This document shows, piece by piece, positions 34,516 to 44,487 of a stretch of 64,000 bases of DNA (position 1 is its first letter; each line of letters begins with the position of its first letter). The position numbers and the translations under genes were made by a program. Source of the DNA: Rossellomorea orangium. GTDB lineage: Bacteria > Bacillota > Bacilli > Bacillales > Bacillaceae_B. Below the pieces are notes generated by a model that worked only from the letters and a program-made list of their open reading frames with translations, did not search any database and was not told the DNA's origin. The stretch covers positions 134,009 through 198,008 of the forward strand of contig NZ_JAHWGH010000018.1 in assembly GCF_019334305.1 (NCBI RefSeq), read 5' to 3'.

Positions 34516-35052
34516 TTATTCTTCGTCGCCTTCTAAGAAGTCTGGATCTAACTCTTCAAACTCTTCATCATCCAAGTCACAATCCCAGTCTTCATCGTCA
34601 CAACCTTCTGGATTCACAAGGACACATACTTTTGTTTCTCCAATAACTTCCACTAGGAATTCTCGTTCGACGTGAACGATGATTTTGTTACCGTTTGGTG
34701 AAATTACCGCTTCGCAGCAATTAGGCTGTTGTAGTACTCGAGCACATACTTCAATATCATCTAAGCAGTCGGGGTCACGGTATTTAAGTTTGATGCAGTC
34801 TGTATATTCTACTCTTTCAGTGACAACGGAAGTTTTTGTGTTGTCGCTGTGGGAGTACCATACGTTGATATCGTAAGAACCGTGAACTTCTACCTTCTTG
34901 CCTACTTTGTGTGCTTCATACTGATGATTAATGATCCAGCAGCCTAAAATGCTCGATGGATTATGCGGCGGGCAAATCGTATGATGAGACTGTGTAAATT
35001 TGCGTCCCTTCGCTACGACCGCTTTAGTGATAATCTCTCTATATTCTGCCAT
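34516..35052 (-). CDS. cotE: Outer spore coat morphogenetic protein CotE
   Basis: Mother-cell protein that forms a ring around the forespore and recruits outer coat or exosporium proteins. The 178-residue sequence keeps the CotE blocks [56 protein letters not shown] and [15 protein letters not shown], and ends in the typical acidic tail rich in Asp/Glu. It has more Cys than B. subtilis CotE. ATG 35052 follows GAGGAGG; an upstream in-frame ATG at 35070 lies before that site. In many Bacillus genomes cotE is beside ricA, as here. Two sporulation promoters precede it. Confidence 0.95.
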
Positions 35053-35162: not shown

Positions 35163-35263
35163 CGAATACCCATTGAAGGTTCCGGAATGCACTTCACGCT
35201 GACATTGAAATAATGGTAAACTTAGAAAGAATTCAAGTTCATATTAATGAGGAGGAAGCAAAT

Positions 35264-35575
35264 ATGGCAAAAAGTAAAGCAAAGAAGAAAAGAGACCATC
35301 AATTACGGAATACAGGTCGTGACGTATCGATTCACCGGGGTACTACTCCTGATTTTTCGACCATGATGAGGAGAACGAAAACCAAAAAAGAATCATTGCT
35401 AAAAGAACAGACAAAACACAAAAAACGACCTTTGCCAGGAAATGATATCCCTTTAAGCAAAGATCGTTTTTTTATTGGTTTTTATTTTTCAGTTAAGAAC
35501 AGCTTCCAGGTGTTGAGTTTTTCACATGAGAACCCGTTTCACCGCGGAGTAGGTCTCCCCCGGTGGTTTCAATAA
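35264..35575 (+). CDS. Small basic protein, BrfA-like candidate with terminator inside the ORF
   Basis: Begins at ATG 35264 after AATGAGGAGGAAG, a strong ribosome binding site. Residues 1-57 are very Lys/Arg-rich (MAKSKAKKKRDHQLRN, IHRGTTPDFSTMMRRTKTKK, KHKKRPLPG), typical of small ribosome-associated proteins of Bacillus. No in-frame stop occurs before the strong hairpin terminator at 35424-35473, so most transcripts should lack a stop codon; the formal reading frame ends at 35575, overlapping ricA on the other strand by 83 bp. The B. subtilis ribosome-rescue factor BrfA and E. coli ArfA are regulated this way: the product is tagged by tmRNA unless trans-translation is failing. Identity with BrfA is an inference from layout and composition. 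Confidence 0.55.
   Translation: MAKSKAKKKRDHQLRNTGRDVSIHRGTTPDFSTMMRRTKTKKESLLKEQTKHKKRPLPGNDIPLSKDRFFIGFYFSVKNSFQVLSFSHENPFHRGVGLPRWFQ
35424..35473. terminator. Bidirectional terminator inside the small basic ORF
   Basis: Stem AACGACCTTTGC / GCAAAGATCGTT (one mismatch, 21-nt loop) followed by seven T on the plus strand and by TTTTTT on the minus strand, where it serves ricA. On the plus strand it would end transcription within the coding frame near codon 66-70. Confidence 0.8.
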
Positions 35576-35924
35576 TGTGATCGGTCACATTATTAGAGAT
35601 AACCGAAGCAACGATTTGAAGTAAATCATTCACATCTGTTTGTGACTCCTTAAATTGTTGGACAACCGGAATTTCATCGATTTCTTTTTCAAGATTTTCT
35701 ATTTTTGCTTCCACCATTTTTAGTGCTTCAATTTTTCCGTAGTGCTGGAAGTTAACGGCCTGTTTTTGTAAACTCTTGATACTGGCGATCATTTCACGGA
35801 CTTTCTGATTTTCATGGATCTGTGCTTCAGCCCGTTTAAAGAAATCCACTTCCTCTGTTTCAGCAATCATGGTTGCAAGCTCCTCAGCCCGCTTCATAAT
35901 ATCGTCTTTTGTATACTTTGCCAT
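35493..35924 (-). CDS. ricA: RicA (YmcA), RicAFT complex subunit
   Basis: Subunit of the RicAFT (YmcA-YlbF-YaaT) complex, which carries 4Fe-4S clusters and FAD, stimulates RNase Y processing and is needed for sporulation, competence and biofilm formation in B. subtilis. The 143-residue helical protein keeps LATMIAETEEVDFFKRAEAQIHEN, IKSLQKQAVNFQHYGK and the C-terminal TGGDLLRGETGSHVK with the terminal Cys used in cluster binding. It directly follows miaB (1-bp gap), as in B. subtilis, so both share a promoter. Start ATG 35924 lies next to the miaB stop and has an AGGTGAAAT site. Confidence 0.95.
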   Translation of the reverse strand: MAKYTKDDIMKRAEELATMIAETEEVDFFKRAEAQIHENQKVREMIASIKSLQKQAVNFQHYGKIEALKMVEAKIENLEKEIDEIPVVQQFKESQTDVNDLLQIVASVISNNVTDHIIETTGGDLLRGETGSHVKNSTPGSCS

Positions 35925-37866: not shown

Positions 37867-38439
37867 ATGAGTTATAGTCAAAATTCAAAGACCCAGGACA
37901 CATATTTCCATGAGGAATATTCAAACCATAAATGCCGGGAATCTCATTCCAAGCATTATGATCATTGCGTCAAAGACGTATTAGAAGCCATCCTTGAAGC
38001 TCAGAAGAAAGTAAAGAAAGACCACAGCTGCGAGACATCCTGTAAAAAGTCCATTGAGGATTTGCTATGTGAAAAAAAGAAACACAAAAAGAATACCATC
38101 CCCTTTATTTTATATTGTGGATGCGAGCCATTTAAAGGCACTGGTGTCACAACCTATCATTGTCATTCAAAAAAGAATAAAACATTCAAATGTATTGAAA
38201 CCTATGTCTTCAAAATAATAGACCTGGATCACAAATGTGCGACCCTTGAATTATTAACATTTAAATCGGACCATAAGGGTGATTCTCACTCTCATCATGA
38301 TCATAAGTGTGGACTCTCTTCTCCTTGTAAACAGATAGACCACAAAAGTGTGGAGGACTTGATGGAAACCGGAATATGTATCACTGTAGACTTGTCTTGT
38401 TTCTGTGCTATTACCTGCCTGCCCGCCGTCCATTTATAA
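37867..38439 (+). CDS. CotY/CotZ family spore coat protein
   Basis: Cys- and His-rich 190-residue protein of the CotY/CotZ/ExsY family, which self-assembles into the outermost coat (crust) or exosporium basal layer through disulfides. The family core is here: HCVKDVLEAILEAQKKV, NTIPFILYCGCEPFKGTGV, FKIIDLDHKCATLELL and the signature ICITVDLSCFCAITCLP near the end. Compared with B. subtilis CotY it has a longer His/Lys-rich N-terminus and a His-rich loop (HSHHDHKC). ATG 37867 follows AAAGGAG. It is the first gene on the island side of miaB and ends at a bidirectional terminator. Confidence 0.9.
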   Translation: MSYSQNSKTQDTYFHEEYSNHKCRESHSKHYDHCVKDVLEAILEAQKKVKKDHSCETSCKKSIEDLLCEKKKHKKNTIPFILYCGCEPFKGTGVTTYHCHSKKNKTFKCIETYVFKIIDLDHKCATLELLTFKSDHKGDSHSHHDHKCGLSSPCKQIDHKSVEDLMETGICITVDLSCFCAITCLPAVHL

Positions 38440-40300: not shown

Positions 40301-41068
40301 ATGAGTGATTATAATAAGAATAGAAATTGTGTGAGCGTAGATAAGTCTGCTTCACTCGATCACTGCGACAACACAACAGTCGACCCCATTCTAACCCCGG
40401 CAGGTGAAAGAATTGTCCATGTTCCAGTAGATTTAGGAGTATATCGTGTATCTAGCAATCTTGAAGCACATATTAAATTCCCTGAGCCAGTGATGGAAAT
40501 CAAAGATGTGAAAAAGAAAGTGGAAATTGTCCAGTGCCGATTAATGACGATTCCAACCAGCAATGGAGACTTCAGTGAAGATGGGACACAATTTCCCCTG
40601 TTATTATCAGGTTATGTACGTAAAAACATCCAATATGCTACACCATGTGGGGGATCTGGATTCGATGGATCCTGTGTATCTTCAGACATTAAATCCTTGA
40701 CGGTCCGCGTCCCTTTTAAATGCATGACTACGATTACCCTTGAATCTCCAGTCCAACTCCCAAGAACGAATAACCGTCAGGAATTTGATTTCTTTAGAGC
40801 TCAAGAACTAGGGACAGGCTATCCTGAAAAGGATCAATATTTATCAAATGACATCTCCCAATTCCATCAATACTGCACGAATTACTATAATCAACTTCCA
40901 TATTGCGAATTGCTTTCAAGCAGCATTCTAGAGTGGGATGAATCTACAGATCGTGTATCTGAAGGTCCAGTAGGTGAAGGATACTTTTACAATATGCTTG
41001 AAAAAATGTCCATCAACTTTACTGTAAAAGTATTACAAAAACAGCAAGTCCGTATTAACGCATTATAA
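40301..41068 (+). CDS. CsxC/SPOCS-like spore surface protein 1
   Basis: A 255-residue protein of a family I associate with CsxC of clostridial exosporium and SPOCS (DUF3794)-type domains. Blocks shared with the paralogues at 41257, 42082 and 43732 are VPVDLGVYRV then a strand, IKFPEPVMEIKDVKKKVEIVQCRL, LSGYVRKNIQYATPC, VRVPFKC, and in the closest paralogue NNRQEFDFF, SQFHQ and CELLSSSILEWDE, with the terminal VKVLQKQQVRI. Several Cys are available for cross-linking. There is no signal peptide, as expected for coat proteins made in the mother cell. ATG 40301 follows AGGAGG. The family name is from memory; shared descent of the four genes is visible directly. Confidence 0.8.
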   Translation: MSDYNKNRNCVSVDKSASLDHCDNTTVDPILTPAGERIVHVPVDLGVYRVSSNLEAHIKFPEPVMEIKDVKKKVEIVQCRLMTIPTSNGDFSEDGTQFPLLLSGYVRKNIQYATPCGGSGFDGSCVSSDIKSLTVRVPFKCMTTITLESPVQLPRTNNRQEFDFFRAQELGTGYPEKDQYLSNDISQFHQYCTNYYNQLPYCELLSSSILEWDESTDRVSEGPVGEGYFYNMLEKMSINFTVKVLQKQQVRINAL

Positions 41069-41088
41069 GCAGTTGCCCAGTATCATCA

Positions 41089-41133
41089 GCACTCCCCCTA
41101 CTGTATGAATACAGTAGGGGGAATGCTTTTTTT
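41089..41133 (+). terminator. Terminator after CsxC-like gene 1
   Basis: Stem TCCCCCTACTGTAT / ATACAGTAGGGGGA extended by GCA/TGC, then seven T. Confidence 0.92.
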
Positions 41134-41256
41134 CACGTATCCCTAAGTGGTTGTAAATCATTCTTGATTCATTTGTCTTTTTACATATAGGCTCAGGCCC
41201 AAACAACAATTAATCTAAATCATAAGATGGCATTATCTTGCTTTAGGAGGCCCCTT

Positions 41257-42012
41257 ATGTTTGATAACCATAATAAAATGTCTGATTGTCATGCAACGTC
41301 AAATATGCATGATTGTAAAAGCCAGTGTCACCATCCAAAAGTCAGTATTGGAAAAATCGTGACCAAAGTTCCTGTTGTATTGGCTGAACTGACACTACAG
41401 GTAAATGTAGATGCGACGATTACCTTTCCAGAAGCCGTTCTGGAAATTAAAGATATTAAAAAAACGATAAAATTAACCCAGTGCAGACTTCTACTTCCTT
41501 CTAATAAACTCTTTGTAAAAGGGTTTGTCCGAAAAAACATCCAATATGCAAGCCCTTGTAAAGAAATTGAAGAATCGTCCAACTTTTCGATCGCATCAGA
41601 TCTTCACTCTTACACCGTAGATATACCCTTTCAATGTGTGACAGCCATTAAGCATTTCTTATCAATGCCTGTCATGCCAGAAGTAAATAATCGTCAGGAA
41701 TTTGACTTCCTTATCTCGAAACCATTGCCGTCCGGGTATCCAGAAAAAGATGAATTACTAACACACGATTTATCTCAGTTCCATCAGGAAAGTCATCAAT
41801 ATTACAACGAAATTCCTTACTGTGAATTAGTTTCCAGTAAAATCATCGAGTGGGATGAAGCGATCGATCGCTGTCCCCTTCCTCATTCCGGTCCGATTGG
41901 AGAAGGCTACTTCCGCACAATTGAAGAAAAAATGGTCATAGACCTATGTGTTAAAGTCCTTCAGACCCAGCAAATCCGGGTAACCTCCACTACGAATGAT
42001 GATTGCGACTGA
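41257..42012 (+). CDS. CsxC/SPOCS-like spore surface protein 2
   Basis: A 251-residue paralogue of the preceding protein, close enough that whole blocks align: VPVVLAELTLQVNVDATITFPEAVLEIKDIKK, LLPSNKLFVKGFVRKNIQYASPC, VDIPFQCVTAIK, NNRQEFDFL, GYPEKDELLTHDLSQFHQES, YCELVSSKIIEWDE and VKVLQTQQIRV. The N-terminus is His/Cys-rich (DCHATSNMHDCKSQCHH), a possible metal or disulfide cross-linking tail. I use ATG 41257, 10 nt after AGGAGG, not the ATG at 41227. A tandem duplication with gene 1 is the simplest origin. It probably continues into the next gene 69 bp downstream. Confidence 0.8.
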   Translation: MFDNHNKMSDCHATSNMHDCKSQCHHPKVSIGKIVTKVPVVLAELTLQVNVDATITFPEAVLEIKDIKKTIKLTQCRLLLPSNKLFVKGFVRKNIQYASPCKEIEESSNFSIASDLHSYTVDIPFQCVTAIKHFLSMPVMPEVNNRQEFDFLISKPLPSGYPEKDELLTHDLSQFHQESHQYYNEIPYCELVSSKIIEWDEAIDRCPLPHSGPIGEGYFRTIEEKMVIDLCVKVLQTQQIRVTSTTNDDCD

Positions 42013-43731: not shown

Positions 43732-44487
43732 TTAACGTTGGATGATGTTTCGGAAACGATCAAAGACTACTTCTGGACCTTGCTGATCTTCACCTGCATC
43801 AGTATCTCCAGCCATTTGTTGTTTCTTTTGGGTTAATTTAATAAGAAGGTTAATGTCCATCTTTTCTGTGATTTTATTAAAACGTCCCCAATTATCAAAG
43901 TTTTCTGTAATATCCCACTGATTTACTGCAGATGCAAGAAGTTTGCATTTAATAGGCTCGTTATTGATTTCGAACGTTAATGAACCAAATTCGCAACGGG
44001 ATGCACCCATTCCATCTTTAGCAAGTTCTCTTCTTTGCAACACATTTTCCTTAATGCTGAAGTCAATTCCAAATGGTTTATTGACAGGATTAGCAAGTCT
44101 CACCCGGTCATACGCTTTAAAAGGAATGTCAACACTATAATCTTTCACTACACCGTAGGAACCTTCTACATATTGAATGTTCTTGTGAACGATTCCTTCT
44201 ACAAATAATTTCACGTATTCCGGGAACCCTGGTACAGGAATTGCTTTACACTGGGTGAGTGAGACGTTTTTCTCGATGTTTTTAATGGCACTTGCATAAG
44301 TTGGAAGATAAATCTCCGCTTCAGTTAAAGATTGAAGAAATACGTCTCCAAGTACGACCGTTACTTCTTCCAAGTCAAGGTCCGGTACGTATGTTTCTGT
44401 AAATAAGCTTCTAGATTCTGCTTTATCGCTTGATGGTTGTGGAGGGCATCCATGTTGACCAAATCCGCAGCCTGTATTCTTTTTCAT
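43732..44487 (-). CDS. CsxC/SPOCS-like spore surface protein 3 (diverged)
   Basis: A 251-residue, more distant member of the same family, on the opposite strand. Shared blocks are LEEVTVVLGDVFLQSLTEAEIYLPTYASAIKNIEKNV in place and pattern, SLTQCKAI, LFVEGIVHKNIQYVEG, VDIPFKAYDRV and IKCKLLASAVNQWDITEN, with the terminal INLLIKLTQKKQQ. The N-terminus has the Cys-containing GCGFGQHGCPPQP and the C-terminus a short acidic plus basic extension. ATG 44487 follows AGGAGTG. It is a single-gene unit with a sigma-K-like -10 upstream. The pattern TQC...G.V.KNIQY is the clearest link to the other three. Confidence 0.78.
   Translation of the reverse strand: MKKNTGCGFGQHGCPPQPSSDKAESRSLFTETYVPDLDLEEVTVVLGDVFLQSLTEAEIYLPTYASAIKNIEKNVSLTQCKAIPVPGFPEYVKLFVEGIVHKNIQYVEGSYGVVKDYSVDIPFKAYDRVRLANPVNKPFGIDFSIKENVLQRRELAKDGMGASRCEFGSLTFEINNEPIKCKLLASAVNQWDITENFDNWGRFNKITEKMDINLLIKLTQKKQQMAGDTDAGEDQQGPEVVFDRFRNIIQR

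Follow-up and report, generated by a model that had tools for sequence, protein, structure and literature searches.

We analysed a stretch of 64,000 nucleotides (hereafter the window) from the 4.57-Mb genome of Rossellomorea orangium (G000), whose nearest named brfA-bearing relatives are Rossellomorea species. Between two minus-strand genes, one that we take from its sequence to be cotE and the YmcA-like ricA, lies a small Lys/Arg-rich open reading frame on the plus strand (Table 1). From its ATG the frame spells MAKSKAKKKRDHQLRNTGRDVSIHRGTTPDFSTMMRRTKTKKESLLKEQTKHKKRPLPGNDIPLSKDRFF and runs on through a hairpin and seven T residues; read directly, its first in-frame stop is the TAA at 35573-35575. 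The initial annotation had pointed to an AGGAGG site, a basic ORF and a frame that stays open through hairpin and T-run, and every coordinate it gave proved correct.

Table 1. Features of the cotE-brfA-ricA locus (window coordinates)
Feature	Position	Strand	Basis or remark
cotE (presumed), divergent neighbour	34516-35052	-	start MAEYREI
Candidate extended -10 of brfA (TGG TAAACT)	35214-35222	+	without clear -35; inferred from spacers
Shine-Dalgarno AGGAGG	35250-35255	+	read from sequence; 8 nt 5' of ATG 35264
brfA, part expected within the terminated mRNA	35264-35473	+	~69-70 codons, stop-free; homology, dN/dS
In-frame intrinsic terminator	35420-35473	+	stem 35420-35472, T7 35467-35473; folding, covariation; minus strand = stronger ricA terminator
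Formal ORF 3' end past the terminator	35474-35575	+	antisense into ricA, up to TAA 35573-35575
ricA (YmcA-like), convergent neighbour	35493-35924	-	hairpin in common with brfA

Strong Shine-Dalgarno sequences also lie upstream of the brfA homologues that we examined. When cotE-ricA spacers were compared, the sequence TGRTAARCT, the candidate extended -10, was conserved in seven brfA-bearing members of the genus and degenerate in brfA-free members. An in-frame ATG further upstream (35213), which would yield a protein of 120 aa, was rejected as the start because every homologue starts MxKSxAKK or a close variant. The initial annotation had also remarked on an overlap of 83 bp with ricA. The overlap exists (ricA ends at 35493 on the minus strand) but is not a feature in its own right: the frame overruns its terminator into antisense ricA. 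We rejected a function for it, since the open run beyond the terminator varies widely among homologues, from -1 to 138 nt. Near cotE and ricA we noticed, by eye, a CotZ/CotY-type coat-protein-like gene and three paralogue-like ORFs (37867-38439, 40301-42012, 43732-44487).

Relationship to BrfA and the predicted rescue pathway

We searched the predicted protein against PDB chains with phmmer and obtained a single match (E 4.9e-14), chain y of 6SZS, which is B. subtilis YqkK/BrfA; window residues 1-54 align with BrfA residues 1-52. A pairwise comparison with this protein had been suggested by the initial annotation, which called the gene a BrfA homologue; its positive outcome, the retained contact residues and the in-frame terminator, a trait of the family, all bear that identification out. 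BrfA folds on the ribosome, and its structure there has already been solved. The contact residues given in PMC6881298 are kept in the window protein as R25, F31, R36 and K51-H52 (the KH motif), and R25, R36, K51 and H52 are invariant among 18 homologues. In B. subtilis BrfA, Phe31 is the residue that stacks on the switch loop and His34 stacks on A1492 (PMC6881298). Position 34 is Met in the window clade and is occupied by M, V, F, L or H among genus homologues; because of this variation, residue 34 does not appear to be a defining BrfA residue. Over codons 2-52, dN/dS is ~0.2 between the window gene and those of its two closest brfA-bearing relatives (G004 and G007), a ratio that indicates purifying selection.

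No Pfam or NCBIfam model matched the ORF at E<=1, and so no curated ArfA profile did. The 103-aa translation contains no GGQ motif. Searches with tblastn found no brfA in phages or plasmids, hence no sign of mobile carriage. By its sequence, the gene is a further member of the known BrfA kind, clearly related to B. subtilis BrfA.

We looked for partners of the factor in the window genome. Its RF2 aligns over 341 residues with that of B. subtilis in 6SZS (E 1.3e-193), and SPF and the switch-loop Trp region are present. SmpB and tmRNA are adjacent on one contig (G000:C31), the tmRNA tag ending, as read by eye, in ...GKTNNNLALAA. An RqcH N-terminal family match was found in the genome as well.

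The mechanism and regulation of BrfA have been shown in B. subtilis (PMC6881298), and we infer that both carry over to the window species. Most transcripts would end in frame at the T-run 35467-35473 (with ends at ~35470-35476), and a ribosome would reach the end of the mRNA at about codon 69-70 without meeting a stop codon. While trans-translation works, tmRNA and SmpB would tag the BrfA product and direct it to degradation; when trans-translation fails or is overloaded, untagged BrfA would accumulate. The truncated product would retain all ribosome- and RF2-contacting residues (1-55). Its KHKKR tail would bind non-stop ribosomes in their vacant mRNA channel, and BrfA would recruit RF2 for hydrolysis of the peptidyl-tRNA. 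Thus, we are highly confident that the gene is brfA and encodes an RF2-dependent alternative rescue factor, with a terminator-made non-stop mRNA and tmRNA-controlled accumulation as the predicted mode of expression; both non-stop expression and rescue activity are to be expected in the window species.

The window gene resembles that of B. subtilis BrfA (YqkK; 6SZS, PMC6881298) in sequence family, start and RF2- and ribosome-contacting residues, and in having a rho-independent terminator in frame before the stop, an RF2 partner and a tmRNA. It differs in carrying M34 instead of H34 and two residues more before the KH motif, in its position between cotE and ricA with a hairpin common to ricA, and in a product that would end at ~codon 69-70 rather than at ~62. 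In E. coli, the non-stop mRNA of ArfA arises mainly via RNase III cleavage; the statement in the initial annotation that BrfA and ArfA use exactly the same trick therefore stands for BrfA but not for ArfA. E. coli ArfA shares RF2-dependent rescue, tmRNA-controlled non-stop expression and a KH motif with the window protein (PMC6881298), yet its N-terminus is different and the window ORF matches no ArfA profile. ArfT of Francisella and ArfB are also alternative ribosome rescue factors, but ArfT uses RF1 or RF2 and ArfB has a GGQ of its own, which the window protein lacks.

A terminator within the reading frame

The arms of the window hairpin are AACGACCTTTGC (35424-35435) and GCAAAGATCGTT (35457-35468). 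Folding of 35420-35473 gave -15.2 kcal/mol on the sense strand (z -4.8, with no shuffle equalling it) and -26.3 kcal/mol on the antisense, ricA-side strand (z -7.3). The hairpin thus forms on both strands, as expected of the bidirectional terminator first proposed, but the two directions are unequal and the ricA side is the stronger. This asymmetry arises because positions 35429 and 35463 form a C.A mismatch in the sense hairpin but pair as G-U on the other strand. The same mismatch occurs in the brfA-free relative G006, and in both strains the common terminator appears biased to ricA. A simple consensus terminator scanner did not list the window hairpin because its loop is over the scanner's limit, and Rfam returned only sub-threshold chance matches for the region. 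Comparison with G004 and G007 revealed that synonymous change is suppressed in codons 53-69, and among eight genus members 5 of the 21 hairpin pairs have changed on both sides with pairing retained. RNA structure and reading frame are thus maintained jointly.

We then compared 159 non-redundant brfA genes. The terminator lies inside the frame in 147 of them, at ~codons 50-70 (stem start median nt 151, end nt 199); L199 and L210, beyond the 147, have hairpins that fall under the thresholds and were seen by eye. In the coding frame, 145 of the 147 hairpins are stop-free where dinucleotide shuffles predict 62, and the two alternative frames contain stops in 22 and 128 of the 147 hairpins. Even among divergent homologues, the codons at which the hairpin begins are the same. 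Further genes from more distant groups of the class, very divergent ones included, have an in-frame terminator in 26 of 30 cases. Outside the genus, the loci we looked at place brfA beside genes other than ricA and nevertheless retain the in-frame terminator.

Individual genes depart from this arrangement. The stop codon of brfA lies within the terminator hairpin in L257, L259 and L260 (g210) and in L126 (G245), which should therefore escape non-stop control. L217 (G342) is a pseudogene-like brfA at which the hairpin remains. G344 carries two copies (L124 and L214) on different contigs, both without an in-frame terminator.

We also followed the locus across the genus, where brfA is intact in 16 of 36 genomes and a remnant in another (G017, L029). 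Among the 28 genomes in which cotE and ricA were both placed (spacers L047-L076), brfA-free members retain the hairpin behind ricA, and the spacers of G014 and G017 still hold scraps of the 3' end of brfA. On a DNA tree of ricA and miaB from 30 genomes, the presence or absence of brfA requires at least five changes, three of them forced by well-supported branches; parsimony alone does not tell losses from gains. Because of the remaining scraps we read the changes as losses: brfA was probably lost repeatedly within the genus while the ricA hairpin was kept. Since brfA is gone from several close relatives, it is dispensable. The hairpin, retained in relatives without brfA, doubles as the terminator of ricA within the genus.

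Could termination of ricA be all that the hairpin does, with brfA reading through it by chance and its non-stop expression without function? The greater strength on the ricA strand, the survival of the hairpin after loss of brfA and a window mismatch that spares the ricA strand alone all favour such an explanation. Yet it fails to account for the in-frame terminators at non-ricA loci outside the genus, for open frames far above chance (145 against 62) or for the shared codon position at which the hairpin begins in divergent homologues, and we consider it very improbable. Since brfA loci with other neighbours keep their terminators, the ricA role is best seen as an extra and not as the explanation of the in-frame hairpin. 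Still more remote is the notion of a small basic ORF, either an ArfA-like analogue or non-coding, beside a coincidental hairpin: the silence of Pfam and NCBIfam would fit it, but direct homology to BrfA and a dN/dS of ~0.2 reduce its probability to almost nothing.

A different concern is the strength of the switch. The sense hairpin is weaker than 108 of the 147 homologous hairpins because of the C.A mismatch, and more read-through is therefore possible; the read-through product would be the 103-aa form that ends at the stop codon. In the seven closest brfA-bearing relatives the hairpins reach -22 to -28 kcal/mol, against -15.1 in the window, and a U at the mismatch, as found in relatives, would bring the window hairpin to -19.8 kcal/mol. 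These values are what one would expect if the sense terminator leaked enough to make a substantial, constitutive amount of the stop-containing form, with partial loss of control by trans-translation. However, the T7 and a folding energy within the range of homologues (L097, -16.1) suggest that termination still works. A leakier switch in the window species is possible; leakage on that scale seems unlikely to us, and it would be a variant of non-stop expression of brfA, compatible with it.

Distribution of brfA and a stop-spanning element in g39

A profile built from the 18 homologues was used to search the order, the class and the phylum. Of 397 order genomes, 144 (representing 50 of 135 genera) contain BrfA, as do 66 of 399 genomes of the class and 6 of 398 phylum genomes, all six inside the class. 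Leaving aside a few that span only a portion of the profile, the weakest matches in the class (E near 1e-4, 23-32 bits) are backed by in-frame terminators and not by score alone. Published counts are far lower: PMC8012679 places BrfA in the genus Bacillus, and PMC11633108, which counts BrfA as an arfA homologue, gives arfA in 5 of 2,633 Firmicutes, listing 10 species from the B. subtilis group. The difference is likely due to the use of a profile instead of a single query. An incomplete literature search, supplements aside, turned up no report of family-wide conservation of the in-frame terminator.

Seven of the 12 genomes of genus g39 have a brfA without an internal terminator (L117, L124, L131, L154, L167, L203 and L207). 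The encoded proteins terminate in STSGWRVEK(A/V)A, the stop codon is TGA, and a near-invariant element of ~46 nt, TCAACATCAGGGTGGAGGGTAGAAAAAGYTGCCTGATGGNATAAGGA, spans that stop and reaches at least 11 nt beyond it. A 7-bp stem is possible within the element, with no both-sided covariation, and a comparison with Rfam yielded no family, only sub-threshold chance matches. Each of the seven genomes contains exactly one perfect copy, solely at brfA, and we therefore rejected the idea of a general repeat. The remaining five g39 genomes have no copy of the element, and their brfA terminator is in frame. The g39 tail (-KAA or -KVA) and the local tmRNA tag (...NNKQDYALAA) both end in two small residues. 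For L224-L230, ARAGORN reported the tag as VRTPVSWHKLR or VRTPVSWHMLR; the L226 sequence clearly contains ...NNKQDYALAA followed by stops, and the odd tag probably reflects a mis-set tag frame.

The element may serve as a hard-wired degron, act at the RNA level or do both. Tentatively, and with more doubt than conviction, we suggest a combined reading: terminator-made non-stop BrfA would be widespread in Bacilli, and at least one subclade, that of the seven g39 genomes, would have swapped the switch for the 46-nt stop-spanning element, a hard-wired degron or RNA-based control taking the place of tagging by trans-translation.

Taken together, these results suggest that the terminator-made non-stop design is far commoner than published surveys state. 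As no Pfam or NCBIfam model covers BrfA, most brfA copies are probably unannotated or labelled "hypothetical". Lineages in which the gene was lost, the terminator was lost or the stop was moved are natural experiments on how the two rescue systems are wired together.
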